A stretch of 64,000 nucleotides of DNA from Luteolibacter pohnpeiensis (GTDB lineage Bacteria > Verrucomicrobiota > Verrucomicrobiia > Verrucomicrobiales > Akkermansiaceae): the NCBI RefSeq assembly GCF_016595435.1, contig NZ_JAENIJ010000002.1, positions 1 to 64,000 on the forward strand, given 5' to 3'. The first letter of the stretch is position 1, and every line of letters begins with the position of its first letter. The notes beneath the pieces were generated by a model. It searched no databases, was not told the DNA's origin, and saw only the letters and a list, made by a program, of their open reading frames with translations. Positions 158 through 19,199 of this stretch are shown piece by piece. The translations under genes were made by a program, and so were the position numbers.

Positions 158-1309
158 CTATGATCTTCCCTCGGAATGGCGAGTCCCTCCGGAGCCGATA
201 ATGACGATTTTGACAGTTACCCATCCATCCGTTGAGCTGATCTCAAATTCATGCGCCCCGGGATAGAGAAGCTCCAGTCGACTCCGCACGTTCGCCAGGC
301 CAATGCCGCCGACGTCATTCCGGTCATCCGCATGGCGCTCAAACCAAGTTCCCGTATTGGAAATTTCTAGAGTCAATCGATTTTCAGCTAGACTCGATTT
401 TATCCGAACGAGAAGCGTCTGGCCTGAGGACATCCGACCATATTTCACCGCATTCTCAAGGAGAGGCTGAATCAGGACTGCGGGTATCTCGATCCCCAGG
501 CTCGCTGGATCGATATCCAGCTGTAGACGCAACTCATCACCAAACCGGATTTTCTCGATCTCAAAATATTCGCGGGAAGCCCCAATTTCTTCGCTCAAAG
601 GGACCAGTGAATTTAGCTGAGTGCCCCAATTTCGGCTCACATAGCTTGAAATGGCATCAAGTAAGTGATCTAATTTTTGGTTTCCCGCCGATTCATTTCG
701 AATCAACTCCAGTGCTTCCGACACAAAACGATGTGGTATCTGTGATCGCAGTAAATGAATTTCCGCCTCTTGCTGCCGCCTCAGCATTTCATCTAGTCCA
801 ATCTGCTCTTCTCGCCGATCGAGGGAGCGCTTTGCCATGAGCCAAAACATGCTCCAACCGGTAAAAAGCAGGAAAAAATAGGTCAGTACCCCAAAGTGAA
901 ATACCGGGGAATCCGAGGGGGAGCACTTCGCAAATCGGCCAAGATTAGAGTAGAGTGGCACAAAAAGATCCGGAACGATGCCAAAATGCCAAATCAGCGT
1001 GACACAAACGGAGACGATCACCGCTAGCAGTGCCTGAATCGACAACTTTAAGGATAGAAAAAGCCTGCACTCATAGAACCATCCCATCAAAGAACTTACA
1101 ATCAACGACATCAAGGCATCCACAGCCTTGACCCATATAAAGCTGACTGCGGGGGCGCTCCACTTCATTCCGTACCGTAATCCTACGTAATAAATTGGAA
1201 ATGAAGCCAGAGCATACCCGCCCCAGATCATGGTTTGGAATCTCCAAAAAAAAGGAATCCTACGCCATGCCGAGCCGAGTTTGATGGAAATTGAAGATGG
1301 CATTATCAA
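158..1309 (-). CDS. LytS/YehU-family sensor histidine kinase with an altered H-box
   Basis: A 383-residue membrane kinase of the His_kinase/HATPase_c type that pairs with LytTR regulators. Several hydrophobic segments lie in residues 25-160, followed by a short coiled linker and the dimerisation box. The phospho-acceptor motif reads SQIPHRFVSEA instead of the family's SQI-N-PHFLFNA: His193 is kept, one residue is lost before it and the FLFN part is gone. The ATP-binding half is intact: N-box LLENAVKYG, then ISNTG, then the G-box GGIGLANVRSRLELLY. It lies 27 bp downstream of a second kinase on the same strand, so the two are probably co-transcribed. The neighbour shows the opposite pattern of decay (good H-box, poor ATPase). 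Family call is firm; whether it autophosphorylates is open. Confidence 0.85.
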   Translation of the reverse strand: MIMPSSISIKLGSAWRRIPFFWRFQTMIWGGYALASFPIYYVGLRYGMKWSAPAVSFIWVKAVDALMSLIVSSLMGWFYECRLFLSLKLSIQALLAVIVSVCVTLIWHFGIVPDLFVPLYSNLGRFAKCSPSDSPVFHFGVLTYFFLLFTGWSMFWLMAKRSLDRREEQIGLDEMLRRQQEAEIHLLRSQIPHRFVSEALELIRNESAGNQKLDHLLDAISSYVSRNWGTQLNSLVPLSEEIGASREYFEIEKIRFGDELRLQLDIDPASLGIEIPAVLIQPLLENAVKYGRMSSGQTLLVRIKSSLAENRLTLEISNTGTWFERHADDRNDVGGIGLANVRSRLELLYPGAHEFEISSTDGWVTVKIVIIGSGGTRHSEGRS

Positions 1310-1336
1310 ACGGATGAATGGATAAGTAAAACAGGA

Positions 1337-2491
1337 TCAGGATATTAAGACCATCGGTGGATTGCGAATTTTGATCTGGAGTGCTGATTGGCTATGAGAA
1401 AGCTCCACGGTGCACCGATGCTGGTTGGCCAGCAATTGATCAAGCCGCTCGCGTATTTGATAAAGGTCTGGTTTCGCCAAAACTTCGACTCCTACCCCGC
1501 CCCATACACCTTCGATTTTCGCCCCCAACTCGATCAATAACACTTCGTTCCGAAAACTTGAACGGAACACGATCACTTGCTGATGAGGAATCCTTTCTCG
1601 AGCCAGCATCAAAGCCTTCTCGATCAAAAGTCGAACGATGACACCGGGGACCAACACCCCGGCACCTTGTAGCTGATTAACTATGGTAACATGTAAGGAA
1701 TCCGAGAACCAGCGTTGCTCGATTGAGATAAAACATTGGAGTGCTTGCATCTCCTGATCTAGCGGCACCCAAATTTGCTCGCGATACATCAAGCAGTGAT
1801 GCAAATACACGCACAAATTTTCAATAACCTGCTCCGCTTTACCATTCTCACTCACTTCGTTTAGAAGCGAATTCATGACATTAAATAAGAAATGTGGTCT
1901 GATCTGGGAGCGAAGCATCAACAATTCGGCCTGTTGAAGACGCAATTGTGAGTCCCTGAGCGCTTGGTCCTTCTTTCTAGAATCCTTGAGGTAGGCGATC
2001 AGCAAATAAATGGCGCACCAGCCTGTATGCAGGAGGAACAAATAGGATTCCGCCGCCAAATGTAAGGCAAGTTTATTACCCGGGTCCCAAAGCCTCGGTT
2101 TTTGATAATGGTGGGCAATCGGCATAATCACCAAAACCCTCACTATAAAATGGATAAAAATAACAGCACTTGCGGCCAATAAACTGATCAATCCGATCGA
2201 TTTTATAAATCCAATATTTCTCTCTCGAGATCGTTTGAGCATCCCAGACCATCCAGTTGTCAAAACAATCGACGCGAAAGTATCAATGATACGAATTAAT
2301 ACAAAAATATGGACTGGCCCTCGCCATTTGACGACATAATACATTCCAATCAAATGAACTGGGAATGAGAAGAACGTGTAAATCAGCCAAAAGAGAATCT
2401 GATATCTACAGACAAACGGAAGCCGAGCCCATCGACCTTGAGCCTGAAATCCCCTTTGATTTGAAATAGCTATTGGAGAATTCGCACTCAA
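1337..2491 (-). CDS. LytS/YehU-family sensor kinase with a degenerate ATPase
   Basis: A 384-residue paralogue of the adjacent kinase and first gene of the pair. N-terminal hydrophobic segments (about residues 25-170) are followed by a textbook H-box, LRSQIRPHFLFNVMNSLL, with His200. The catalytic domain is eroded: the N-box reads LLIEKALMLARER, with Lys where the Mg/ATP-binding Asn should be; the next box reads LGAKIEG; and the G-box Gly-Leu-x-Asn is replaced by KPDLYQIRERL. It therefore probably cannot bind ATP normally but could still be phosphorylated in trans. The reading frame is intact over full family length, so this looks like maintained specialisation rather than a pseudogene. Confidence 0.82.
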   Translation of the reverse strand: MSANSPIAISNQRGFQAQGRWARLPFVCRYQILFWLIYTFFSFPVHLIGMYYVVKWRGPVHIFVLIRIIDTFASIVLTTGWSGMLKRSRERNIGFIKSIGLISLLAASAVIFIHFIVRVLVIMPIAHHYQKPRLWDPGNKLALHLAAESYLFLLHTGWCAIYLLIAYLKDSRKKDQALRDSQLRLQQAELLMLRSQIRPHFLFNVMNSLLNEVSENGKAEQVIENLCVYLHHCLMYREQIWVPLDQEMQALQCFISIEQRWFSDSLHVTIVNQLQGAGVLVPGVIVRLLIEKALMLARERIPHQQVIVFRSSFRNEVLLIELGAKIEGVWGGVGVEVLAKPDLYQIRERLDQLLANQHRCTVELSHSQSALQIKIRNPPMVLIS

Positions 2492-2831
2492 CTCGGTGCT
2501 CCAGCTATTTCAGACCTATAGAAGATGCAATTCCATATTTTCTGAAATCTTCAAAATGGCTCCTACACAAGACACAATAATCCAGCAAGCCACTAATCTT
2601 ACGGGAAAAACTTAGGCATTTTGTCAATACACCATTATCGATATCATATTTGATCGACGATTTTCCAAATATACCATGAATCTAACATTCATCATCGCTG
2701 CTGCCATTTCGCAACCAAACCTAGAGATTACAAATAATTGCCCATAATCATCATAATTCCGTTTTACAAAAATCTCACAATTCTTAATAGCAGGAGATAC
2801 TTTTTGAGATTCGCTTTGTTCCATCCGCCCC
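2492..2831. promoter_or_regulatory. AT-rich divergent control region
   Basis: 340 bp between the divergent kinase pair and the LytTR regulator. It is clearly more AT-rich than the flanking genes and should hold both promoters. I see no convincing gene. The minus-strand open frame through 2624-2854 has no family resemblance and overlaps the regulator start. No consensus sigma-70 hexamer pair stands out, and I could not resolve a clear pair of LytTR direct repeats by eye. Confidence 0.5.
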
Positions 2832-3632
2832 ATGCCGCGCCAGCCAAATACCATGCATCAGCCGAATGCGAATTCGGACGAAGCTAAGGACAGCCATACC
2901 GAACGTGTTTGGCGCACGATGATCGTTGAAGACGAACCAGCAGCGCGGGAACGCCTCAAGCGATTACTGGAGAAACGGCCTGAAATTTATCTGATCGCGT
3001 CTACTGGCAACCCAGAAGAAGCCATCAGGCTATTCACTCAGCATTCACCTGAGCTCGTGTTCTTGGATATCGAACTCAAAAAAACCAATGGCTTTGATAT
3101 TCTGTCCCATCTGACTCCAATGCCAAAGGTTGTCTTTGTCACCGCGCACACGGGTTATGCCGTAAAAGCATTCGAGGCCAATGCCATTGATTACTTGGTA
3201 AAGCCAGTCTTTCCCTCCCGGTTGACGGCAACGCTTGATCGATTGATTTCGCCTGGTTTGCAGAAAAATGATTCTACGAGCTGTAGATTCCCCATCCAGG
3301 ACTCGATCGTTCTTCGTCATAACTCCTCTCCCCGGCAAATTGCGGTGGAGGAAATCAATTATATCGAGGCAAACGGCAATTACTCGAAAATTTCTACCCC
3401 ATACAGCACCAAGACCATCGCCTATCGCACCCTCAGTCACTGGGAAGAACGTTTGCCACCGAAGCGATTCCGGCGCGTGGATCGTTCCATGATCATCAAT
3501 GTTTCACGCATTAAAGATCTGGTAGTTACCGAAAGAAACAGAACGAAAGTCTACTTCCACGATACCCAAAACCCGCTCCTGATCGGGCGGACAGCTCTCC
3601 TACGGCTGCAGTCGTGGTTGAAAAAAGTGTGA
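2832..3632 (+). CDS. LytTR-family response regulator
   Basis: A 266-residue two-component output regulator. The receiver domain (about residues 30-145) shows the acidic pocket IVEDEPAARERL, the phospho-Asp in FLDIEL and the conserved Lys in YLVKPV. The C-terminal LytTR DNA-binding domain covers about residues 160-265 with IEANGNYSKI and RVDRSMIINVSRI. The ATG at 2832 is the longest start; ATG 2853 is equally plausible, because the first 25 or so residues precede the receiver fold and neither site has a clear ribosome-binding sequence. It is divergent from the two kinases, which are the obvious partners. Confidence 0.9.
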   Translation: MPRQPNTMHQPNANSDEAKDSHTERVWRTMIVEDEPAARERLKRLLEKRPEIYLIASTGNPEEAIRLFTQHSPELVFLDIELKKTNGFDILSHLTPMPKVVFVTAHTGYAVKAFEANAIDYLVKPVFPSRLTATLDRLISPGLQKNDSTSCRFPIQDSIVLRHNSSPRQIAVEEINYIEANGNYSKISTPYSTKTIAYRTLSHWEERLPPKRFRRVDRSMIINVSRIKDLVVTERNRTKVYFHDTQNPLLIGRTALLRLQSWLKKV

Positions 3633-3731: not shown

Positions 3732-4979
3732 ATGAAAAAGAGCCGGGTGGTCGTAGTAGGTGGTGGGGTGATCGGGCTCTGTACCGCCTACTACGCACTC
3801 CGCAAGGGAATGGAAGTCACCTTGGTCGATCGCGGCAAGCCCGGGATCGACAATTGCTCGGCAAGAAATGCCGGTATGATCGTTCCCAGCCATTTCATTC
3901 CACTGGCGGCCCCGGGCATGGTCGCCAAAGGCCTTCGCTGGATACTGAACCCGAAAAGCCCGTTTTATGTCCGCCCTAGCCTGAATCCGGATCTGATGCG
4001 CTGGGGCTGGCTCTTTCTACGCTATGCCAATGCGCGCCACGTTGAGCACAGTGTCGAGTTGCTGCGTGATTTGAATCTGGAAAGCCGCCGGTTATTCGAG
4101 GAACTCACGGCGGACGAAGATTTTGGCCTGGTGAAGCGAGGTTTGCTGATGCTTTGCAAATCCGGCAAGGGATTGGAGGCGGAGGCCGAAGTCGCCGATA
4201 TGGCCAGGCTACTTGGCATCCAGGCTGAAGTGTTGGACGCCAAACAAACGGCAATGGTGGACCCATCCGTCACCATGAACATCGCCGGGGCCGTGCATTT
4301 TCCTCAAGATTGCCATTTAGATCCTCAACGATTTCTCGAGTCCATCACCCGTCGCGTCTTGAGCATGGGTGGAACCATTCATCAGGAAATTGAAATCGAC
4401 CGGATCATCCGGACCCCGGACAAGATCACTGCCGTGGAAGGATCCGGCCAGCGATTTGAGGGCGATCAATTCGTCATTTGCGGCGGCTCCTGGACTTCGA
4501 AACTGCTAAGAAATGTCGGACTGCGCTTACCGCTACAGCCCGGGAAAGGCTATTCATTGACCATTGATTCCCCACCGCAGCTTCCTCAATTGTGTTCCAT
4601 TTTGAGTGAAGCGAAAGTCGCGGTAACTCCCATGGACGGGCGTCTGCGGATTGCCGGCACGATGGAAGTGGGCAGCATGGGCACTCATGTGAATCGCAAC
4701 CGGGTTGAAGGCATCATCCATTCCATCGTCGACTATTTCCCAGTGTTTGACGGAGTCGATTTTTCATCCATCGAACCATGGGCTGGTCTTCGGCCCGTCT
4801 CACCAGATGGAATCCCCTATCTGGGGAACGCGCCCCATATCGAAAATCTCTTCATCTCCACGGGCCACGCCATGATGGGCTTGAGCCTCGGCCCTGTCAG
4901 TGGTCGCGCAATGGCGGATCTGTTGACCGGCGAAACACCATTCCGGGATTTGGCCGGAATGGCGGTCAATCGATTCTAA
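3732..4979 (+). CDS. FAD-dependent D-hydroxyproline / D-amino-acid dehydrogenase (DadA family)
   Basis: A 415-residue flavoprotein of the DAO family. The N-terminal dinucleotide site is VVVGGGVIGLCTAYYA (residues 6-21) followed by the acidic strand end VTLVDRG. The C-terminal FAD motif GLRPVSPDGIPYLG is followed by STGHAMMGLSLGP. In this cluster it most likely oxidises cis-4-hydroxy-D-proline, made by the epimerase, to 1-pyrroline-4-hydroxy-2-carboxylate, passing electrons to the membrane. It is a single polypeptide, unlike the multi-subunit LhpBEF enzyme of pseudomonads. Its stop overlaps by 3 bp with the stop of the convergent AraC-type gene. No clear ribosome-binding site precedes the ATG. 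The family is firm; the substrate is inferred from neighbours. Confidence 0.85.
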   Translation: MKKSRVVVVGGGVIGLCTAYYALRKGMEVTLVDRGKPGIDNCSARNAGMIVPSHFIPLAAPGMVAKGLRWILNPKSPFYVRPSLNPDLMRWGWLFLRYANARHVEHSVELLRDLNLESRRLFEELTADEDFGLVKRGLLMLCKSGKGLEAEAEVADMARLLGIQAEVLDAKQTAMVDPSVTMNIAGAVHFPQDCHLDPQRFLESITRRVLSMGGTIHQEIEIDRIIRTPDKITAVEGSGQRFEGDQFVICGGSWTSKLLRNVGLRLPLQPGKGYSLTIDSPPQLPQLCSILSEAKVAVTPMDGRLRIAGTMEVGSMGTHVNRNRVEGIIHSIVDYFPVFDGVDFSSIEPWAGLRPVSPDGIPYLGNAPHIENLFISTGHAMMGLSLGPVSGRAMADLLTGETPFRDLAGMAVNRF

Positions 4980-5707
4980 CGAAACTTCCTGCGGTAAGCC
5001 AGCGGTGGCATGCCCGTCGCCTGCTTGAATTGGCGTGAAAATGCCGACTGATCCGAATACCCGCAATCCAGGGCGATATCAGCAATTGCCTGGTCACTAT
5101 TGCGCAACTTGGTGCATGCCGCATCGATTCTGACTTTCACCAAATACTGCCCCGCTGAAAGATGGAACAATGTGCGGATGCGTTGATCAAATTGATAGAC
5201 CGATAGCCCGGCCATTTCGGCGAGTGCCGGCAGCCGCAGAGGTTCATCAAAATGTCGATGAATGTAGTCGATCGAGACCGATAAAGCCGCAAATTGATCA
5301 CCCAGTTCGGCCGGCATTTGGATGTCGCGGGAAATCCCGCAAATGCCGGTAACAATGCCATCAGCCCCTGTAATGGGCTCTTTATAAGTGAGGCACCAGC
5401 CGCTGCCGCCTCCCGGATACAAGTGCAATTCCAAATGATCCCGGATCGGGCTACCGCCTTGTAACAGGGTTCGATCCTGATCGGCGAAGGCCGAGCCAAG
5501 CGGAGCAGGGAAAAGTTCTTCGGTCGTCCGCCCGATCACATCTCGCTTCGAAGGCAATCCACAACGCGTAGCCAGTGTATCATTCACTGCCAAATATTTG
5601 CCGCCAGCATCCTTGATAAAAAACACAATGTCCGAGACACCGTCAAAAAGTCGGTCAACCGGCAACATGGATGGATCAAAACCCATCGGACGGGGAGAAT
5701 TATTCAT
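4976..5707 (-). CDS. PAS-domain AraC-family regulator of the hydroxyproline cluster
   Basis: A 243-residue regulator. Residues about 15-130 form a PAS-fold sensor: FDGVSDIVFFIKDAGGKYLAVN, with the RTTEELFP and GICGISRDIQ elements. Residues about 145-243 form an AraC double helix-turn-helix, with IADIALDCGYSDQSAFSRQF and the closing GMPPLAYRRKFR. It is transcribed away from the epimerase gene and converges on the dehydrogenase. This is typical of a local activator that senses a pathway substrate or intermediate. The PAS sensor, rather than an AraC cupin, is the less common arrangement. Confidence 0.88.
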   Translation of the reverse strand: MNNSPRPMGFDPSMLPVDRLFDGVSDIVFFIKDAGGKYLAVNDTLATRCGLPSKRDVIGRTTEELFPAPLGSAFADQDRTLLQGGSPIRDHLELHLYPGGGSGWCLTYKEPITGADGIVTGICGISRDIQMPAELGDQFAALSVSIDYIHRHFDEPLRLPALAEMAGLSVYQFDQRIRTLFHLSAGQYLVKVRIDAACTKLRNSDQAIADIALDCGYSDQSAFSRQFKQATGMPPLAYRRKFR

Positions 5708-5790: not shown

Positions 5791-6744
5791 ATGTCTACCA
5801 TCGCCCTTAAGGTCATTGATTCCCACGCTGAAGGAGAACCCACGAGGGTTGTAGTGGAAGGTGGACCGGACTTGGGCAACGGCCCCATGTCTGAACGAGC
5901 TGCACTTCTTCAGCGAGACCATGATTGGCTTCGTAGTTCGGTTTGTAATGAGCCGCGTGGACATGAGGCAATGGTTGGTGCGTTGCTATGTGAAGCTTAT
6001 GAAGCGGATTGTATCTGCGGCGTGATTTTCTTCAATAACGTATCTAACCTAAACATGTGTATACACGGAACGATCGGGCTCACCGTGACACTAGCTCATT
6101 TGGGCAAGATACAAATCGGCTCCCATCGGATTGATACACCGGTTGGAGTGGTTACCGCGACTCTGCATCCAGACGGAAGCGTCGAGGTCGCCAATGTTCC
6201 CAGTCGTAGAAAAGCGAAGGACGTGAGCGTGGAAGTTCCCACCTGGGGTGTGGTGACCGGGGACATCGCCTGGGGCGGCAATTGGTTTTTCCTGATTCAA
6301 GGCCAGGGCCCTGAAATCAAATTTAAAAATCTGGATGATCTAACCGACTTCACCTGGAAAGTCCGGCTCGCACTCGAAGCCTCCGGTATCACCGGAGACG
6401 ATGGCATGTGCATCGACCACATCGAAACCTTTGGGCCGCCCGTTGATCCAGCGCTTGCAGAGAGCCGGAATTTCGTACTTTGCCCGGGGCGTGCCTATGA
6501 TCGTTCACCATGCGGAACCGGAACGAGCGCCAAACTGGCATGCTTAGCCGCTGATGGAGATCTGGCTCCAGGGCAAATTTGGCGGCAGGCTGGAATACTC
6601 AACTCTGTTTTCTCGGGAACCTATTCGGAACTGCCAGATGGCTGGATCCTGCCACGCGTCACAGGTCGCGCATGGGTCACCGGCGAATCCACATATTACT
6701 TCCATCCCGAAGACCCCTTCCGGTTCGGCATCCCGATGGACTGA
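5791..6744 (+). CDS. lhpA: 4-hydroxyproline 2-epimerase (proline racemase family)
   Basis: A 317-residue enzyme converting trans-4-hydroxy-L-proline to cis-4-hydroxy-D-proline, the first catabolic step. The start chosen is ATG 5791 (MSTIALKVIDSHAEGEP), because family members begin with this strand; the frame is open upstream to 5671 but that part runs into the regulator gene. The two catalytic cysteines are present: Cys90 in NMCIHGTIG and Cys241 in SPCGTGTSA. A Cys at the second site, rather than Thr, argues for an epimerase and against trans-3-hydroxyproline dehydratase. Ile replaces the usual Gly in the MCGHG motif. The next three genes supply the rest of the pathway. Confidence 0.9.
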   Translation: MSTIALKVIDSHAEGEPTRVVVEGGPDLGNGPMSERAALLQRDHDWLRSSVCNEPRGHEAMVGALLCEAYEADCICGVIFFNNVSNLNMCIHGTIGLTVTLAHLGKIQIGSHRIDTPVGVVTATLHPDGSVEVANVPSRRKAKDVSVEVPTWGVVTGDIAWGGNWFFLIQGQGPEIKFKNLDDLTDFTWKVRLALEASGITGDDGMCIDHIETFGPPVDPALAESRNFVLCPGRAYDRSPCGTGTSAKLACLAADGDLAPGQIWRQAGILNSVFSGTYSELPDGWILPRVTGRAWVTGESTYYFHPEDPFRFGIPMD

Positions 6745-6779: not shown

Positions 6780-7685
6780 ATGAAGATCCAATGGAAGGGC
6801 GTGATGCCCGCAACTGTCACTCAATTTAACGCAGATCAATCCATCGACCATGCGCTCATGGCAGAACATGGACGCTGGCTGGTCGAAAATGGCTGTAGCG
6901 CCATTGTGCCACATGGCTCGCTCGGTGAAGGCGCGACGTTGAGCTTCGAGGAAAAGGTTGCGCTCCAAAAAACCTATACCACCGCCCTGCCCGGCACACC
7001 TATCATTCCAGGTATCGCAGCCCTGACTACGAAAGAAGCCGTAGATCTTGCCAAAGCGGCTAAAGACAACGGATGCAGCGGCCTGATGGTGCTTCCACCT
7101 TATCTCTACGCCTCGGATTGGCGGGAAATGAAAGCGCATACGAAAGCTGTCATTTCCGCCACCGATCTGCCCTGCATCATTTATAACAATCCGGTAGCTT
7201 ATAAAACCGACTTCACTCCTGCCCATATCAAGGAATTGGCGGATGAGCTTCCCAATGTCGAATCGGTTAAGGAATCCTCGACTGATGTCCGCCGCATCGC
7301 CGGCATCCGTGAGCTGTGCGGTGACCGCCTTGCGATCGGAGTCGGGGTCGATGATTGCGCCTTGGAAGGGTTCGCCATGGGAGCCAGCTTCTGGATTACC
7401 GGTGTCGGTGGTGCATTTCCAAAACACAACGTGAAGTTATTCGATCTCGCAACAAGCGGCCGGATCGAAGAAGCGATGCCCATCTATCTCTGGATGCTGG
7501 AAATGCTTCGCATGGACACCGTGGTCAAGTTCGTCCAGCTGATCAAACTGCAGCAGACCCTGGCGACCGAGGGCAAAATGGGTAATAATCGAGTACGGGC
7601 TCCCCGACTGGAACTGGAAGGAGCCGAACTCGCTGCCGCGACTGCAATCATCGAGAAAGCAATTGCGACTGCTCCTGCAATCTAA
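6780..7685 (+). CDS. lhpC: 1-Pyrroline-4-hydroxy-2-carboxylate deaminase (DHDPS/NAL family)
   Basis: A 301-residue TIM-barrel lyase. The Schiff-base Lys164 lies in ESVKESSTD, the catalytic Tyr135 in IIYNNPV, and the ketoacid loop reads HGSLGEGATLS in place of the GTTGE of dihydrodipicolinate synthase. Between an epimerase and an oxoglutarate-semialdehyde dehydrogenase it should convert 1-pyrroline-4-hydroxy-2-carboxylate to 2-oxoglutarate semialdehyde with loss of ammonia. ATG 6780 (MKIQWKGVMPATVTQF) is chosen because the homologous region begins here; the longer frame back to 6579 overlaps the epimerase. The gene lies 35 bp after the epimerase stop, so same operon. Confidence 0.88.
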   Translation: MKIQWKGVMPATVTQFNADQSIDHALMAEHGRWLVENGCSAIVPHGSLGEGATLSFEEKVALQKTYTTALPGTPIIPGIAALTTKEAVDLAKAAKDNGCSGLMVLPPYLYASDWREMKAHTKAVISATDLPCIIYNNPVAYKTDFTPAHIKELADELPNVESVKESSTDVRRIAGIRELCGDRLAIGVGVDDCALEGFAMGASFWITGVGGAFPKHNVKLFDLATSGRIEEAMPIYLWMLEMLRMDTVVKFVQLIKLQQTLATEGKMGNNRVRAPRLELEGAELAAATAIIEKAIATAPAI

Positions 7686-7721: not shown

Positions 7722-9287
7722 ATGTCACTCGATCTACTAGGAACTTCATTCATCGGCTATTCACGCGGCACTGGCCACAACTCATGCGGCAAGGCGATCA
7801 ATCCTGCGACTTCCGAAGAACTGGAGCCGACCTTTCGGTCCGCTACGCCGGATGAAGTGGAAAAAGCCATGGCTCTCGCGAAGTCGGCATTTCCAATCTA
7901 CTCCAAACTTCCCGGTAGCGTGCGGGCCAAATTCCTCCGCACCATCGCCGAGAAAATTGGCGCCCGAGTGGAGCTTCTCGCCAAACGAGCCCCGCTCGAA
8001 ACCGCGCTCCCGGAAGCACGGATCCGCGGCGAAGCGGCTAGAACCATGGGGCAGTTTCAGCTATTTGCGGATTTGATCGAAGAAGGTTCCTGGGTCGATG
8101 CCCGGATCGAACGAGCGATTCCGGATCGCCAACCGTTAGCCAAACCCGACTTGCGATCGATGCAGGTCCCACTCGGCCCAGTCGCGGTATTTTGCGCCAG
8201 CAACTTCCCGCTCGCCTACTCGGTTGCAGGCGTGGATACCTCGTCCGCTTTGGCGGCTGGTTGTCCGGTTGTTGCGATCGTTCATGAATCTCACATGGGA
8301 ACAGCCGAACTGGTGGCAGGTGCCGTGATCGAAGCCGCCCGTGAGTGTGAGATGCCCGAAGGAGTTTTTTCATCCCTTTGTGGTGGAGGAAGAACGGTCG
8401 GCGTCGCCGTCGTGAAACATCCCATCACCTCTGCCGTGGGCTTCACCGGTTCACGTTCAGGTGGAACCGCCCTGATGGAAATTGCCGCATCCCGCCCGTG
8501 CCCGATCCCTGTTTATGCGGAAATGAGCGCCATCAATCCGCTGGTGATCTTGCCAAGTGCCATTGCCACGGAACCACAAGCCACCGCATTGGCAGAAGCC
8601 TACTTCGCTTCGCTCACACTCGGCTGTGGACAATTTTGCACGAACCCCGGACTGGTTTTCCTACCTGACACAGGAGCCGAACCTTTTGTGGAAAAACTCC
8701 GATCATTGATCGCTGCGGCCCCGGCAGCCGTGATGTTGAACGAAGGCATCGCACGCGCCTATCAAACCTCCACCAACACCGTTGCCGACCAACCAGAGAT
8801 TGATCTGCTGGCAAAATCAGAAGCACGGGGTTTAAATACGGCACCTCCCGTAGTATTCACCACCACTGCGGCAAAATTCCTGGAGAATCCGAAGCTGCAG
8901 GCGGAAATGTTCGGCCCGGCATCAATTCTCGTTTTCGGCAGCAGCAGCGAAATCGAAACAGCGCTTGCCAAGCTGGAAGGCCAGCTTACCGCCTCCATTT
9001 TTGGCAGCGGGGATGAAATTTCGTGGAATACTGGCATCGTCGATCAACTGCGGAAAAAATCGGGCCGATTCATTTTCAATGGTTTCCCAACCGGAGTCGA
9101 AGTCTGCTCCAGCATGGTTCATGGCGGGCCATTTCCAGCGACCTCCGATGGTCGCAGTAGTTCGGTCGGCACCATGGCAATTTTCCGATTCTGCCGTCCG
9201 GCCGCCTGGCAAAACGCCCCGCAAGATGCCCTGCCACCAGAGCTGCGGGATGAAAACCCTCTGGGAATTTCCCAACACATTCATTGA
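7722..9287 (+). CDS. 2-Oxoglutarate semialdehyde dehydrogenase (2,5-dioxovalerate dehydrogenase)
   Basis: A 521-residue NAD(P)-dependent aldehyde dehydrogenase that completes hydroxyproline catabolism by oxidising 2-oxoglutarate semialdehyde to 2-oxoglutarate. The nucleophile is Cys306 in LGCGQFCTNPG and the general base Glu267 in YAEMSAINP. The cofactor loop is FTGSRSGG. A length near 520 and the FCTNPG context match the hydroxyproline-linked subgroup. It starts 36 bp after the deaminase stop and its own stop lies 8 bp before the likely start of the peptidase gene, so all are probably one transcript. Confidence 0.9.
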   Translation: MSLDLLGTSFIGYSRGTGHNSCGKAINPATSEELEPTFRSATPDEVEKAMALAKSAFPIYSKLPGSVRAKFLRTIAEKIGARVELLAKRAPLETALPEARIRGEAARTMGQFQLFADLIEEGSWVDARIERAIPDRQPLAKPDLRSMQVPLGPVAVFCASNFPLAYSVAGVDTSSALAAGCPVVAIVHESHMGTAELVAGAVIEAARECEMPEGVFSSLCGGGRTVGVAVVKHPITSAVGFTGSRSGGTALMEIAASRPCPIPVYAEMSAINPLVILPSAIATEPQATALAEAYFASLTLGCGQFCTNPGLVFLPDTGAEPFVEKLRSLIAAAPAAVMLNEGIARAYQTSTNTVADQPEIDLLAKSEARGLNTAPPVVFTTTAAKFLENPKLQAEMFGPASILVFGSSSEIETALAKLEGQLTASIFGSGDEISWNTGIVDQLRKKSGRFIFNGFPTGVEVCSSMVHGGPFPATSDGRSSSVGTMAIFRFCRPAAWQNAPQDALPPELRDENPLGISQHIH

Positions 9288-9295
9288 TCCCATTC

Positions 9296-11782
9296 ATGTT
9301 CCGTATCCTGATTCTCGGCCTTTGTCTCATCATTCCACTCCAGGCTTCATCGGACGACTTGCAAGTCCGGAACGCAATGAAGAAAGCGGACTCCTTAGGC
9401 CGGGAATACAGGCGACTTTTGGATAAATCCAACTTCCGCGCCCACTGGGCGGATGATGACTCGCGGCTGATCTATCAGATAGATGAATCGGCAAATGGAA
9501 CCCGGTATTACGAAGTGGATCTGAAATCCGGGAAAGCCACAGCGGCATTTGATCAGGAACTGTTAGCGAAAGCTCTGGGACAAAATTCCCATCAAAACGT
9601 CCGAGCTGGCAATTTGCCATTGATAAGTTTAAAGCCAGTCACGGGTTCCCCAAGCATTCGTTTCTTTGCTCTGGGAAAAAGATGGCAATGGGATACCACC
9701 TCAAACTCACTGCAGGCTGATAACACCCCAGCCAAAAGCATCGCCCCGTCAGCGCCAAACGCGAACCCGCGCAGCACCAGCAGCAACATTCCCACGGTGG
9801 TCTTGATCCAGAACTCGACTGCACAAGATCTGGTCGTGCAATGGGTCAATGAATCAGGAGTTGCAAAAAACTATGGGACCATCCCGCCAAGCGAAACTCG
9901 GGAATTTCAGACCTATGCCGGCCATGTTTGGCTGTTTTCCAATCCGGCGGGCAGTCGCTTGGCATCCGTCCGCGCAGCTGCTGATCCAGTGAGTGTGACC
10001 ATCACTGGTAAAGTCCGATCCGCTCGCCCAGCGGACCCCGGCATCTCACCGGATGGTAAATGGAGCGCCAGGATTCAAAATAACAATCTGTATCTCCAGA
10101 ATCGAGAATCCAATGCCACCATCCCATTAACCAAAGACGGCTCACGCTCGCATCCATACGCTGGTGAATTGTCGTGGTCACCCGATTCCAAAAGTCTCGT
10201 CGCCTGGCGAGTCACCGTGGTGCCTGAGAGGCAGATCAACATCGTCCAAAGCACCCCACCGGACCAGCTGCAGCCAAAACTCCTCACCTTCAACTATGCC
10301 AAACCGGGCGATGAAATCACACGCCGCCGCCCGGTTCTCTTCGACCTGAGCGAAGCCACTCCGAAGCTCGTCCAGCTGGATGACGGGCTTTACCACAACC
10401 CATGGAAAATCGACCGACTGGAATGGCTGAACGATTCATCGGAATTTCAGTTCCTTTTCAATGCCCGGGGACATCAAACCATGCGGGTGATCGGGATTGC
10501 GCCGAAAACGGGCGTTACCCGCATCGTGCTTGAGGAAACCAGCGACACCTTCATCGATTATTCCCAGAAAACCTGGATGCATCGATTGGCTGGCTCCGCG
10601 GACTTCCTCTGGGCATCCGAACGCGACGGCTACAACCACCTTTATCTCATCGATGGCAGAGCCGGTAAAATCCGCAAACAGATCACCAGCGGCGATTGGA
10701 ATATCCATCAGGTCGACGATATTCAGGAAGCCAACGGTTCGGTCGAAATGTTGGTGGAAACCCTCGGCATGGATCCCACCCAGCCGTATCATCGCCAATA
10801 CGCCCGCATCGTTTTGAATTCGGAGGATGACGTGAAAATAACGCGTCTGACGGAATCGCACGGGAATCACACGATCGAGTTTTCTCCTGGAAAAACCTGG
10901 GAAATCGCAACCTGGTCGCGCCCAGATCAGGCCCCCGTGACTGAACTGCGCCGGGGAGGTGACGGGAGTTTGGTTGCCGAACTCGTCAGAGCGGATACCT
11001 CAGCGATGGAGCAACGTGGTTGGAAAGCCCCGGAATCCTTCGTTGCCAAGGGGCGTGACGGCAAAACCGACATATACGGCCTCATTTTCCGGCCCAGCAA
11101 TTTCGACCCGAACAAAAAATATCCGGTCCTGGAAAATATCTACGCGGGCCCGCATGACTTCTTCACCCCACAGAACTTCAGCTCGTGGAGCAGTCTGAAT
11201 GCGATGGCTGAGCTTGGTTTCATTGTGGTGAAATTGGATGGCATGGGCACCAATTGGCGTTCGAAAGCATTTCATGATGTCGCCTGGAAGAATCTGAAGG
11301 ATTCCGGATTTCCTGATCGGATCCCGTGGATCAAGGCGGCGGCTGAATCCCGCCCGTGGATGGACCTGTCTCGGGTCGGCATCTACGGCGGTAGCGCGGG
11401 GGGACAAAGCGCGCTTTCTGCCCTGCTTCATTTCGGCGATTTCTATCAAGTCGCTGTCGCGGATTGCGGCTGCCACGACAACCGCATGGATAAAATCTGG
11501 TGGAATGAGGCCTGGATGGGTTGGCCCGTCGATGAAAGCTACGCGGAAAATTCCAATGCGAATTACGCTGCAAACTTAAAAGGCGACCTGATGCTTTTCG
11601 TCGGTGAACTCGACCACAATGTCGATCCCGCCTCAACGGCACAGGTCGTGGCCGCTTTGCAGGAGGCTGGCAAGGTGTTCGATTTTGTCCCGGTGATGAA
11701 TGCCGGTCACGGTGCCGCCGAGACGCCCTACGGAAATTTTCGCAGAGCTACGTTTTTGGTTCACCATCTCAACTCACTCTAA
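9296..11782 (+). CDS. Secreted DPP IV-type S9 prolyl peptidase with an inserted VHL-beta-like domain
   Basis: An 828-residue exported serine peptidase. Signal peptide MFRILILGLCLIIPLQASS (start ATG 9296; an in-frame TTG at 9284 is less likely). Residues about 20-150 resemble the short N-terminal module seen on other S9 enzymes, 165-223 form the VHL-like insert (separate entry), 235-600 the DPP IV beta-propeller, and 600-828 the alpha/beta-hydrolase domain. The triad is Ser700 (YGGSAGGQS), Asp773 (GELDHNVDP) and His805 (NAGHGAAE). The family removes X-Pro dipeptides. Placed last in a hydroxyproline catabolic operon, it probably releases (hydroxy)proline peptides, as from collagen-like substrates. 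The substrate is inference; family and catalytic residues are clear. Confidence 0.88.
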   Translation: MFRILILGLCLIIPLQASSDDLQVRNAMKKADSLGREYRRLLDKSNFRAHWADDDSRLIYQIDESANGTRYYEVDLKSGKATAAFDQELLAKALGQNSHQNVRAGNLPLISLKPVTGSPSIRFFALGKRWQWDTTSNSLQADNTPAKSIAPSAPNANPRSTSSNIPTVVLIQNSTAQDLVVQWVNESGVAKNYGTIPPSETREFQTYAGHVWLFSNPAGSRLASVRAAADPVSVTITGKVRSARPADPGISPDGKWSARIQNNNLYLQNRESNATIPLTKDGSRSHPYAGELSWSPDSKSLVAWRVTVVPERQINIVQSTPPDQLQPKLLTFNYAKPGDEITRRRPVLFDLSEATPKLVQLDDGLYHNPWKIDRLEWLNDSSEFQFLFNARGHQTMRVIGIAPKTGVTRIVLEETSDTFIDYSQKTWMHRLAGSADFLWASERDGYNHLYLIDGRAGKIRKQITSGDWNIHQVDDIQEANGSVEMLVETLGMDPTQPYHRQYARIVLNSEDDVKITRLTESHGNHTIEFSPGKTWEIATWSRPDQAPVTELRRGGDGSLVAELVRADTSAMEQRGWKAPESFVAKGRDGKTDIYGLIFRPSNFDPNKKYPVLENIYAGPHDFFTPQNFSSWSSLNAMAELGFIVVKLDGMGTNWRSKAFHDVAWKNLKDSGFPDRIPWIKAAAESRPWMDLSRVGIYGGSAGGQSALSALLHFGDFYQVAVADCGCHDNRMDKIWWNEAWMGWPVDESYAENSNANYAANLKGDLMLFVGELDHNVDPASTAQVVAALQEAGKVFDFVPVMNAGHGAAETPYGNFRRATFLVHHLNSL
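9790..9965 (+). other. VHL beta-domain-like insert with a conserved hydroxyproline pocket
   Basis: Residues about 166-223 of the peptidase. Against human pVHL (recalled from memory) the stretch aligns without a gap, offset 95: Trp183=W88, Asn185=N90, Tyr193=Y98, Thr206=S111, Tyr207=Y112, Gly209=G114, His210=H115, Trp212=W117, then Leu-Phe. About 16 of 46 positions are identical by eye, including IPP for LPP and YAGHVWLF for YRGHLWLF. W88, Y98, S111, H115 and W117 line the hydroxyproline pocket of pVHL; all are kept, with Ser to Thr as the one conservative change. The pVHL alpha domain (Elongin-binding) is absent. Confidence 0.8.
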
Positions 11783-16223: not shown

Positions 16224-16808
16224 TTATTGATTCTTGAGGCGCCCGATCATGCCTGTGGTTTCTTCAACCGACATGTCCCGCTGCTCATCCCAATTCACCA
16301 CCTTGGGCTTGCCGTAAACCTTACGACGGAAGTCCGTTTCCGCATCGGATGGCTTGTCCAGATTTTTAGCTGATGCCTCATTCGCGGCATTCGTGCCGTA
16401 ATCGTTCGTGGCGAAGGCTTCCTGAACGACATTTTTACTGCCTTCGTCTGCAGACTTGTTCGCAAAGTTCGAAGCTTTGGCAAATTGCGAGCCATCGGTA
16501 TTTCCGTCATAAGATTTGAGGCTGTAATCTTTATTGCCCCAGAATGCCTTCTTTTTGAAATCCCCAGAGGCATATTCTTTCTTGGCGTAGTCACTGGTCG
16601 CCTCAGAAAGTTCGCCCTTGCTCTCAAACTCACTCCGCTTGCTTCCTGCCCCCCCCAATTCGCCGTTGCTATAGCTGTAGCGCTGTGCCCCATTGATTCT
16701 CTGACTCAGCGTTGGGGTGGAAACCTCACTGGAGGAACCAGAGCTGCTATTTGAAGCACATGAAGCCAGCAGGAACACCGCCGGACTTAAGATGAAGAGA
16801 GTTTTCAA
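16224..16808 (-). CDS. Lipoprotein of unknown function
   Basis: 194 residues with a TTG start at 16808; the frame is open far upstream (to 17129) only because it overlaps the preceding gene out of frame. The N-terminus KTLFILSPAVFLLASC is a clear lipobox with Cys at residue 16. The mature part is Ser/Asn/Lys-rich and low in hydrophobics (AGSKRSEFESKGELSE, SYDGNTDGSQFAKASNF), ending in MSVEETTGMIGRLKNQ. No family recognised. It lies 31 bp after the coiled-coil/TPR gene and is probably co-expressed with it in the envelope. Confidence 0.7.
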   Translation of the reverse strand: MKTLFILSPAVFLLASCASNSSSGSSSEVSTPTLSQRINGAQRYSYSNGELGGAGSKRSEFESKGELSEATSDYAKKEYASGDFKKKAFWGNKDYSLKSYDGNTDGSQFAKASNFANKSADEGSKNVVQEAFATNDYGTNAANEASAKNLDKPSDAETDFRRKVYGKPKVVNWDEQRDMSVEETTGMIGRLKNQ

Positions 16809-16839
16809 AGCAGTTGTGGGTTTAGTTTTTAAAGAGAGA

Positions 16840-19083
16840 TCAATTCGGCGAATTGGCGGGCTCCTGGGTAGCTGATGGCTTGATTTCGATTTTTTTCTCC
16901 AATGCCGGGTCTGGAACTTCTCCACGCTCCAAGGCTTTTTCGTAATACTCGCGCGCCTCATCCAGCCGACCATCCATCTGGTAAAGCAGGGCGAGGTTGT
17001 AATAGGGAGCGGAAGAGACCGGATCCGCATTGATGGCCGCTTTGAAGTAGGCGATGGAATCCTTTGGCTGGCCTTGTTGATAGCAAATCTGCGCAAGCAC
17101 CATGAAGGCCAACGAGTCGTCCGGGGCAAGCTCCGTTGCCCGTTTCGCGGCGGTTTCAGCAGACGCCAAATCGCCGATCTGCATCAGGGAAAGGCCAAGC
17201 ATGCGGAACGAGTAAGCATTTTTCGGATCCAGCTCAGTTGCACGGCGGAACACGTCCACGGCGGCTAGAAAATCTTTCAATTTAAGCTCAACAACCCCCA
17301 GCTTGCACAGCGCGGAAACATCACCTGGATTGCTCTCAACCATCGTCTCGAACAACACTTTGGCCGGGAAGAATCGCCCTTTTGCAAAGGCTTTGACCGC
17401 AGCTCTGTTGTAGCTTTGCTCTTCCTGCTCCAAGGCTGCGGTGGCACGTCCCACTGATTCGCGGTCCCTCGCCATTGGCGAAATGAAATGCCCATCCACA
17501 TTCCGGTCCGCGATCAGTTTTTGTTCTTCAGGAGACAAAACCAGTTCTTCGCCTTTCAGGAAATCGATAGCTTGGGCCAGACGCTCATCTTTAGAACCCA
17601 ATTCTTTTGCCGCCTCCTCAAGCACCTCGCGCGCCTGCTTGTGTCGTTCTTGGACGACCAACTGCCGCTTGATGAGGTTCCGCAGCACGTCCGCCTCTTC
17701 AGAACTCATTCCGGATGAACCGGTGGCCAGCGTGCCTTCTTCATGGCGTAGCCGTGCCTGGAGTTCATCCAGCCGTTGCGCCTGCTTGCGTTTTTCCTCC
17801 TGGAAACCATTAATTTGTGACTTGGCGATGGCCAAGTCGCGCAATGCCTCCGCTTGGTCATCCTTCGTGGCATTGTTATCCAGATTCAGACGATCGACCT
17901 TCTCATTCGCCTCGCGCAGCTGTTTGACCAGCCCCACATTTTGCTCGATCAACTCGTTGATCCGATCCGTTTCGTTCAGTTTGAGCAATGCCGCCATCTG
18001 GTCGCGCTCCTGCAGCAGATTATCCCGCTCATCGCGCAACTGATCGAAAGCATCCTTACTTTGCTGAAGTTCTACTTTAAGATCTGCGATCTGATCGTTC
18101 GCTTTCTTCAGCTCGCTGGTTTTCTGATCGAGCTGCTTTCCAAGCTCCTCCAATTGGCGACGCTGACCGGCCACCAAGTCATTCGCAACATCCTGCTGAA
18201 CCTGCAGATCGCGCGTTAAATCCGCTTCCTTTTGATTCATGTCCGCGACTTTTTTCTTCATCGCGTTGAGATCCGCTTCCAGGGTTTGTCGGCGTGTTTC
18301 AGCTTCCAAATTGGATTCACGACTCTGGTTCAAGGCTTTCCTGAGCGCCTCTCCCTCCATTTCCAAGCTTTGGATGCGGTCGTTCAGTTGATTGAATTCA
18401 TTGCGCATCGGCTGTGCTGCGAGTTTCGCACGCAACGCGCGTTCTCTGGCTTCTGCCTGGCTTAGCTGAGAATTCAATGCATCACGCTGGCGTTCCACAT
18501 CGTGCAATCGGGACGCATCTCTCGCCGCTTGATTCGAATTGGCCAGCAAACCTTTGAGTCGCTTCACTTCCGCCTCCGCCTCTTCCAGACGCCGGGTCGC
18601 TAGCGGATCAACTTCCAAAATTCCGGGCGAAGATAATGGGGCGACTCCATCCGATGGATCGATGAATTCACCGGATTTGACATCGCCTCCTTCGAGTTCT
18701 GCCAAACCACCGAGCTTTGCCCGTTCCTCTTGCGCTTGTTTCTCGGCCTTGGGCTTCAGCTCGCTAGCGGCTTCCTTGTTATTCTCGTATCGGCCTTCCA
18801 CCATCGATTTTTTCCAATCCGGATGATAATGCCTGATGGTCTCGATGAGTTCCTGAGCCTGGGACATTTTTTCCCACGCCTCACGATAATTTCCACTTTG
18901 CTGCAATTCATCCGCCGAACGACGCAACATATAAGCCTGTAGGAAAATATCGGAAGGGTCCAGTTGGGTAGGATGCACCGGCGCCGTCGTCTGCGCGCAC
19001 AGCAAATCGGGCGAACCGACGCCGAGCAAAGCGGCGAACACGATGGCCTTCGCAGGAAGTAGAATCGGGCGGCGATATCGCAT
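16840..19083 (-). CDS. Exported coiled-coil and TPR protein
   Basis: 747 residues from ATG 19083 (MRYRRPILLPAKAIVFAALLGVG, signal peptide ending near LLCAQ); an upstream in-frame ATG at 19122 is less likely. Residues about 120-520 are a long Glu/Lys/Gln-rich heptad coiled coil. The C-terminal part has four or more TPR units (YNRAAVKAFAKGRFFPAKVLF, NAYSFRMLGLSLMQIGDLASA, SAPYYNLALLYQMDGRLDEA). Such proteins act as periplasmic scaffolds; no specific role can be given. It is followed by a lipoprotein in the same operon. Confidence 0.8.
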   Translation of the reverse strand: MRYRRPILLPAKAIVFAALLGVGSPDLLCAQTTAPVHPTQLDPSDIFLQAYMLRRSADELQQSGNYREAWEKMSQAQELIETIRHYHPDWKKSMVEGRYENNKEAASELKPKAEKQAQEERAKLGGLAELEGGDVKSGEFIDPSDGVAPLSSPGILEVDPLATRRLEEAEAEVKRLKGLLANSNQAARDASRLHDVERQRDALNSQLSQAEARERALRAKLAAQPMRNEFNQLNDRIQSLEMEGEALRKALNQSRESNLEAETRRQTLEADLNAMKKKVADMNQKEADLTRDLQVQQDVANDLVAGQRRQLEELGKQLDQKTSELKKANDQIADLKVELQQSKDAFDQLRDERDNLLQERDQMAALLKLNETDRINELIEQNVGLVKQLREANEKVDRLNLDNNATKDDQAEALRDLAIAKSQINGFQEEKRKQAQRLDELQARLRHEEGTLATGSSGMSSEEADVLRNLIKRQLVVQERHKQAREVLEEAAKELGSKDERLAQAIDFLKGEELVLSPEEQKLIADRNVDGHFISPMARDRESVGRATAALEQEEQSYNRAAVKAFAKGRFFPAKVLFETMVESNPGDVSALCKLGVVELKLKDFLAAVDVFRRATELDPKNAYSFRMLGLSLMQIGDLASAETAAKRATELAPDDSLAFMVLAQICYQQGQPKDSIAYFKAAINADPVSSAPYYNLALLYQMDGRLDEAREYYEKALERGEVPDPALEKKIEIKPSATQEPANSPN

Positions 19084-19199
19084 AGGAACCCGCAAAATAA
19101 GGAGAAGCCACGCGCGCGGCAAGCCGGATTGTCAGGCAGATTTACGGCCTGCCTGACTTTTGAAATCGCGAAAATCGAAACGTCCCCCAGAAGAGACGT

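Follow-up and report, generated by a model that had tools for sequence, protein, structure and literature searches.

In a 64,000-nucleotide stretch of the Luteolibacter pohnpeiensis genome (contig NZ_JAENIJ010000002.1, positions 1 to 64,000 of the forward strand; hereafter, the window), a gene located directly downstream of genes for the enzyme families that degrade 4-hydroxyproline encodes a serine peptidase of the S9 family that carries a von Hippel-Lindau (VHL) β domain as an insert. Among proteins that recognise 4-hydroxyproline, human pVHL is the best known, and a large class of degrader drugs is built on it; the five side chains that surround the modified residue in pVHL are kept in the bacterial domain, with Thr in place of Ser111. 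We consider it fairly probable that the insert docks peptides by reading their hydroxyproline, and that the exported peptidase which carries it supplies the adjacent pathway. According to this model, the VHL domain inserted at the β-propeller of the exported enzyme would hold the 4-hydroxyproline of collagen-like or plant/algal-wall peptides in a pVHL-type pocket, and docking would concentrate or orient these hydroxyproline-containing peptides at the peptidase. The freed hydroxyproline would then be taken up and degraded by the products of the adjacent operon (an epimerase, a D-hydroxyproline dehydrogenase, a DHDPS-type deaminase and a semialdehyde dehydrogenase).

The gene and its insert are located as follows:

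9284–11782, + strand: S9 (DPP4-fold) serine peptidase with VHL insert (Pfam and full-length structure model)
9764–10012, + strand: VHL β domain, residues 161–243 (Pfam VHL on residues 163–220; fold match to pVHL 62–154)

The Pfam VHL model (PF01847) matches residues 163–220 of the protein (window 9770–9943) with an E-value of 2e-9 and 37.8 bits, well over the gathering score of 21, and a phmmer search of the PDB sequences with the single domain sequence returned human pVHL at 3e-7. Reciprocally, a profile made only of the bacterial domains recovers pVHL at 6.6e-13, and all of the aligned bacterial VHL domains (62/62) have Pfam VHL matches with E-values of 0.01 or lower. The isolated domain was predicted with a pLDDT (predicted local distance difference test) of 89.9, and the resulting model superposes on residues 62–154 of pVHL (6gmn_C) with a Z-score of 13.2 and a deviation of 1.3 Å over 83 residues, the identity over the superposed region being 29%. 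The complex of pVHL with a capped hydroxyproline (4awj_C) gave a Z-score of 12.9, and all 50 matches listed in a fold search with the domain model were pVHL, as judged by title and residue range. At the level of sequence profiles and predicted fold, these comparisons confirm residues 161–243 as a true VHL β domain. A preliminary description of this DNA had already placed a VHL domain inside the S9 peptidase and had named a Pfam profile search and the superposition of a predicted structure on pVHL as ways of checking it, and both bear the assignment out. The coordinates that it gave for the domain (9790–9965) are out of frame, their translation running into a stop, and its gap-free alignment to pVHL holds except for one gap, which phmmer places at the far end. 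The Pfam matches of the window protein include no pVHL-type C-terminal α domain, the part of pVHL that binds elongin C, and the S9 propeller follows directly. Searched with the Pfam model and E-values allowed up to 10, the window's genome yields this single match and no second VHL domain. A mobile-element origin of the domain was also considered and dropped, as a tblastn search with the VHL domain gave no match in the plasmid and phage collections, a negative that applies to those collections only.

We next consider the pocket. As laid out in PMC9528729, the hydroxyproline site of pVHL consists of Trp88, Tyr98, His110, Ser111, His115 and Trp117; the hydroxyl group of hydroxyproline is bonded to Ser111 and His115, its carbonyl to Tyr98 and its amide to the backbone of His110. 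Conservation was followed in 73 VHL-bearing S9 (VHL-S9) proteins, namely the window protein, 18 proteins from phylum loci and 54 from the genome_contigs set. The 18 phylum loci are biased, since they were found through the VHL profile; the 54 are much less so, as 53 of them hold the catalytic motif used by the scan (MDKIWWNE) and the exact VHL-region pattern is absent from all of them (the genome_contigs set is the best 80 of 571 loci by whole-query similarity, and may favour close copies). The five side chains and their conservation are:

9842–9844, + strand: W187, equivalent to pVHL Trp88; Trp in 73/73 VHL-S9 proteins
9872–9874, + strand: Y197, equivalent to pVHL Tyr98; Tyr in 71 and Phe in 2 of 73
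9911–9913, + strand: T210, equivalent to pVHL Ser111; Thr in 66 and Ser in 7 of 73
9923–9925, + strand: H214, equivalent to pVHL His115; His in 73/73
9929–9931, + strand: W216, equivalent to pVHL Trp117; Trp in 71 and Phe in 2 of 73

Within the 54 genome_contigs proteins taken separately, Trp88 and His115 are each present in 54, Tyr98 in 52 (two have Phe) and Trp117 in 53 (one has Phe), while position 111 is Thr in 49 and Ser in 5; of 80 columns compared, the five of the pocket rank within the top seven in conservation. The preliminary description had named these same five residues, with Thr in place of Ser111, and had regarded free variation among homologues as the outcome that would speak against it; the residues are kept as it stated, and they do not vary freely. 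The position of His110 is occupied by Q209 in the window protein and by His in 48 of the 73 VHL-S9 proteins, and N177 of the window protein corresponds to Asn78 of pVHL.

Two start codons are available to the VHL-S9 gene, a TTG at 9284, which overlaps the aldehyde dehydrogenase stop codon, and an ATG at 9296, of which the ATG is the likelier. Read from this ATG, the protein begins with what resembles, by eye only, a signal peptide, and it is probably exported. Pfam places DPPIV_N at residues 246–550 and Peptidase_S9 (PF00326, E 1.3e-42) at residues 636–821, and the full-length predicted model (mean pLDDT 91.6) finds the DPP4 of P. gingivalis (5olj, Z 32.9) as the best of the PDB matches listed. 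As in DPP4 and prolyl tripeptidyl peptidase (S9B; 5olj, 2ecf, 2d5l), a propeller is combined with an α/β hydrolase bearing a Ser-Asp-His triad, which is intact in the window protein (Ser704, Asp777 and His809):

11393–11395, + strand: catalytic Ser704 (GGSAGG); Ser in 72/73 VHL-S9 proteins (one gap) and in 27/27 other aligned S9 sequences

The VHL insert precedes the part of the propeller that begins at approximately residue 246–250, and members of the S9 family without a VHL domain have a short linker in its place. Since the insert is located in the connection leading to the propeller blade before the loop bearing the Glu-Glu pair in DPP4, this topology places it probably on the active-site face of the peptidase. 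Besides the insert, the enzyme differs from DPP4 in two elements of substrate recognition. The Glu-Glu segment is absent from the window protein, whose loop is shorter than in 5olj, 5yp1 and 2ecf; no such pair is present in 60 of the 67 VHL-S9 sequences that have the segment (the other 7 have one, at scattered places), and it appears in 2/25 of the other S9 sequences. Similarly, the proline S1 pocket of DPP4, formed by Val656, Trp659, Tyr662 and Tyr666 (Val/Trp/Tyr/Tyr), is replaced by Cys, Asn, Asp and Trp in every VHL-S9 sequence that extends to this region (56 to 60 of the 73), and the same four residues are found in 26–27 of the 27 other S9 sequences. Because neither the Glu-Glu segment nor the aromatic proline S1 pocket is kept, the label of a DPP IV-type X-Pro peptidase that the enzyme had initially received is unsupported, and we reject it. 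One speculation is that an S1 pocket of this polar character could accommodate either hydroxyproline or a basic side chain.

The trans-4-hydroxyproline pathway draws on four enzyme families (4HypE, DAAO, DHDPS and ALDH), as described in PMC4113996. All four are encoded upstream of the VHL-S9 gene, with the peptidase directly downstream, in agreement with the four hydroxyproline-degrading genes initially noted there:

3732–4979, + strand: flavin adenine dinucleotide (FAD)-dependent D-amino-acid dehydrogenase/oxidase, expected to be the cis-4-hydroxy-D-proline dehydrogenase (Pfam DAO, E 3.8e-68)
4976–5707, − strand: PAS-AraC regulator, divergent (Pfam HTH_18 and PAS_4)
5791–6744, + strand: putative 4-hydroxyproline 2-epimerase of the proline racemase family (start inferred; listed open reading frame from 5671; Pfam Pro_racemase, E 5.1e-92)
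6780–7685, + strand: DHDPS-superfamily enzyme, expected to be the pyrroline-4-hydroxy-2-carboxylate deaminase (start inferred; listed open reading frame from 6579; Pfam DHDPS)
7722–9287, + strand: aldehyde dehydrogenase, expected to be the α-ketoglutarate semialdehyde dehydrogenase (Pfam Aldedh)

Among the NCBIfam models, the enzyme encoded at 5791–6744 is closest to 4-hydroxyproline epimerase (NF052296, 421.8 bits, slightly below the cut-off of 450) and scores 183.8 with proline racemase and 155 with t3Hyp dehydratase, and none of the 25 NCBIfam matches listed for the aldehyde dehydrogenase is over its cut-off. The window thus shares with the 4-hydroxyproline clusters of PMC4113996 the adjacency of all four families, and adds to it a VHL-bearing, probably exported peptidase. 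A family of PAS regulators, likened by eye to the PAS-AraC regulator of the window, is a neighbour at 7 VHL loci. Directly upstream of the hydroxyproline genes, window positions 158–3632 contain two minus-strand open reading frames that resemble membrane histidine kinases by eye, together with a LytTR response regulator (Pfam), and these could regulate them.

The association between the two elements is found again in other genomes. The flanks of the 80 S9 loci in the genome_contigs set extend up to 8 kb, many being shorter; by an alignment criterion 54 loci are VHL-bearing and 26 are not, with the proviso that among the 26 a VHL match is nonetheless present in two (L079, L086), and that two more (L038, L078) are clipped at contig ends. 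In a tree of the S9 sequences the two clipped loci and L015, which is VHL-bearing by Pfam match, are labelled as VHL-less, so that the VHL counts of this tree are rough. A hydroxyproline epimerase lies within the flanks of 17/80 loci, that is, 14/54 with VHL-S9 and 3/26 others, and near 8 of the 28 VHL-S9 genes with at least 7 kb on both sides. In a clustering of the neighbouring genes it is the commonest family besides the peptidase itself (14 loci), followed by a family of approximately 520 residues (10 loci). The linkage recurs in distant groups, which include the Verrucomicrobiota and records titled Armatimonadetes and Fimbriimonas. Two of the hydroxyproline-linked loci (L026 and L074) additionally have, adjoining VHL-S9, VHL-less relatives of the metallopeptidase with a HEF(A/G)H motif described below; no relative of the one at L026 was found in the window's genome, in a search made without a positive control. 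At the level of whole genomes, VHL and epimerase occur together only weakly in the phylum: among 387 genomes, 20 have VHL, 39 have the epimerase and 6 have the two together (lists compared by eye; one-sided Fisher p 0.0095, kinship ignored). The survey of VHL-S9 fusions and hydroxyproline genes that the preliminary description had suggested therefore sustains it in part, as the linkage is recurrent (14/54) and not obligatory in either direction. The stronger proposal that VHL is found only in hydroxyproline operons is rejected, given that 14/54 VHL-S9 loci have the epimerase and that 2/38 epimerase loci have VHL-S9 (see below).

VHL domains are present in 20/387 genomes of the window's phylum (Pfam model) and in 51/294 genomes of the phylum of G498, a Sedimentisphaerales record (profile A2). 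Carriers beyond the S9 inserts were drawn from inspected loci, a subset of the matches in G498's phylum. They comprise 10 metallopeptidase-like proteins that have a HEF(A/G)H motif and belong to a class unrelated to S9 (of the 8 scanned with Pfam, 5 match ATLF at E 0.01 or better, one of them over the cut-off), 12 sulfatase-like proteins (assigned by Pfam scan for 4 and by sequence resemblance for the others), 9 domains on GH127, SASA esterase and leucine-rich repeat (LRR) proteins (4 scanned), a kinase-MORN protein, one S9 protein with a C-terminal VHL domain, and stand-alone proteins. His115 is kept in 10/10 HEF(A/G)H proteins, where Tyr98 and the full pocket are each present in 8/10, as well as in three stand-alone VHL proteins and in the kinase-MORN protein. 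In contrast, position 115 is Ala in 10/12 sulfatase-like proteins, Ala or Asn in 9/9 GH127/SASA/LRR domains, and Ala in the S9 protein with C-terminal VHL. A single VHL lineage (sulfatase, GH127, SASA and LRR) keeps W88, Y98, S/T111 and W117 and has Ala or Asn in place of H115 in 20/20 sequences, and on the domain tree these 20 fall into one group (Shimodaira-Hasegawa-like approximate likelihood-ratio test support 93; few columns). The existence of this lineage suggests that the VHL fold tolerates the loss of His115, a residue that both peptidase classes keep. In some genomes of G498's phylum, the adjacent and otherwise unrelated genes for GH127, SASA esterase and LRR proteins at L237, L238 and L239 end in similar His115-less VHL domains, which look like a module shared by neighbouring proteins. 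GH127 enzymes are known to act on the hydroxyproline-linked arabinans of extensin.

Several of these observations weigh against a hydroxyproline reader that serves the adjacent pathway. No epimerase is present in the flanks covered of 40/54 VHL-S9 loci, or of 20/28 with at least 7 kb on both sides; besides the window, 36/38 epimerase loci of the phylum are without VHL-S9 within the stretch covered (L145 and L162 have it); and in a genome of the same genus (G215) VHL-S9 and epimerase are on separate contigs. The VHL domain is moreover not required for the linkage, because VHL-less S9 peptidases of Bacteroidota also occur with hydroxyproline genes (the three epimerase-linked loci among the 26, L090, L102 and L105, are Bacteroidota by name), and the catalytic part of the S9 family may by itself be tied to hydroxyproline peptides. 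The pVHL contacts that flank the pocket (Asn67, Arg69 and Phe91) are not conserved in VHL-S9. Finally, the contrast at His115 corresponds to a single change on the domain tree rather than to many, and the Pfam scores of the His115-less lineage are weak: of 8 domains scanned, 5 pass the Pfam VHL cut-off, 2 are slightly below it and 1 is absent from the matches listed.

The main rival treats VHL as a binding module of general use on exported PVC-group proteins, directed to proline-rich peptides, glycans or surfaces, with a pocket whose ligand is other than, or not specific for, hydroxyproline. We judge it rather unlikely: the presence of the same family on sulfatases, GH127, SASA esterase, LRR, kinase-MORN and stand-alone proteins, and the lack of an epimerase in the flanks covered of most VHL-S9 genes, are what such a module would lead one to find, but the form on S9 and metallopeptidase-like proteins keeps His115 throughout and the other contacts nearly always, the glycan-enzyme form being the one without His115, and hydroxyproline epimerase tops the neighbour families. 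It is quite improbable that the insert serves chiefly as a structural element or as a propeller gate, its pocket residues being kept as the core of the domain. Its position inside the propeller region instead of at an end, and the short linker that replaces it in VHL-less members, fit this proposal, yet His115, Tyr98 or Trp88 vary in other lineages that still match the VHL profile, and a pure core would not be expected to pick out the ligand-contact set. A chance or convergent likeness to pVHL, for which the short length of the domain and its modest identity might be invoked, is refuted by the Pfam matches, the reciprocal profile and the fold superposition.

The hydroxyproline-docking peptidase can also be extended to a wider and distinctly doubtful scenario, in which VHL would be a bacterial reader of hydroxyproline in eukaryotic matrix or wall proteins, borne by exported peptidases with two unrelated folds and adapted to another use, with loss of His115, on sulfatases and glycan hydrolases, and in which pVHL would descend from this nutritional reader. 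With a widespread bacterial family that has the pVHL pocket, the question of where the pVHL reader came from can be put directly to the test. If the docking role is correct, a plausible older use for the VHL domain would be feeding on collagen or on hydroxyproline-rich wall proteins, and small natural hydroxyproline-binding modules could become available as reagents. In the literature consulted, the pVHL pocket is discussed in connection with signalling in animals, the design of drugs and engineered plants.

The window domain resembles the pVHL β domain (PF01847; human residues 62–154) in predicted fold, in sequence profile and in the five side chains around hydroxyproline; it differs in having no α domain or elongin-binding part, in being located inside a bacterial peptidase, in having Thr for Ser111 and in the three contacts beside the pocket. 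Whether bacterial VHL domains had been described was a question raised in the preliminary description, and they have: bacterial proteins match Pfam VHL over the cut-off, and one is treated in PMC9002001. This Litorilituus sediminis protein is likewise a secreted bacterial protein with a VHL β domain, but its Pfam match is weak there (1.3e-2) and it is presented as a tumour suppressor; in the text of that paper the word 'peptidase' appears 0 times and 'hydroxyproline' once. In literature searches covering few subscription papers, none of the papers listed dealt with fusions of VHL to S9 peptidases or with bacterial VHL domains linked to hydroxyproline. Since such domains in themselves are already known from bacteria, what may be new is the conservation of the pocket, the peptidase context and the hydroxyproline linkage.

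More distant relatives of the domain were encountered in two other settings. One protein (L024:1-1818, minus strand) contains several tandem VHL-like repeats, the later of which have degenerate pockets. In another genus of the family, AraC-family regulators (L139:3362-4615, minus strand; L148:2812-4017, minus strand; L160:12363-13610, plus strand; and relatives L182-L196) end in a C-terminal domain that is distantly related to VHL (hhalign probability 97, E 7e-11) and has no Pfam VHL match; Trp117 is present in 12/12 aligned sequences and Trp88 in 9/12, the other pocket residues being lost. The genes for these regulators are within approximately 9 kb of a hydroxyproline epimerase in 8/16 genomes checked. 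Elsewhere in the window, and unrelated to the VHL-S9 gene, the minus strand of positions 16224–19122 contains a large open reading frame resembling coiled-coil/tetratricopeptide repeat proteins and a small lipoprotein-like one, both assigned by eye.

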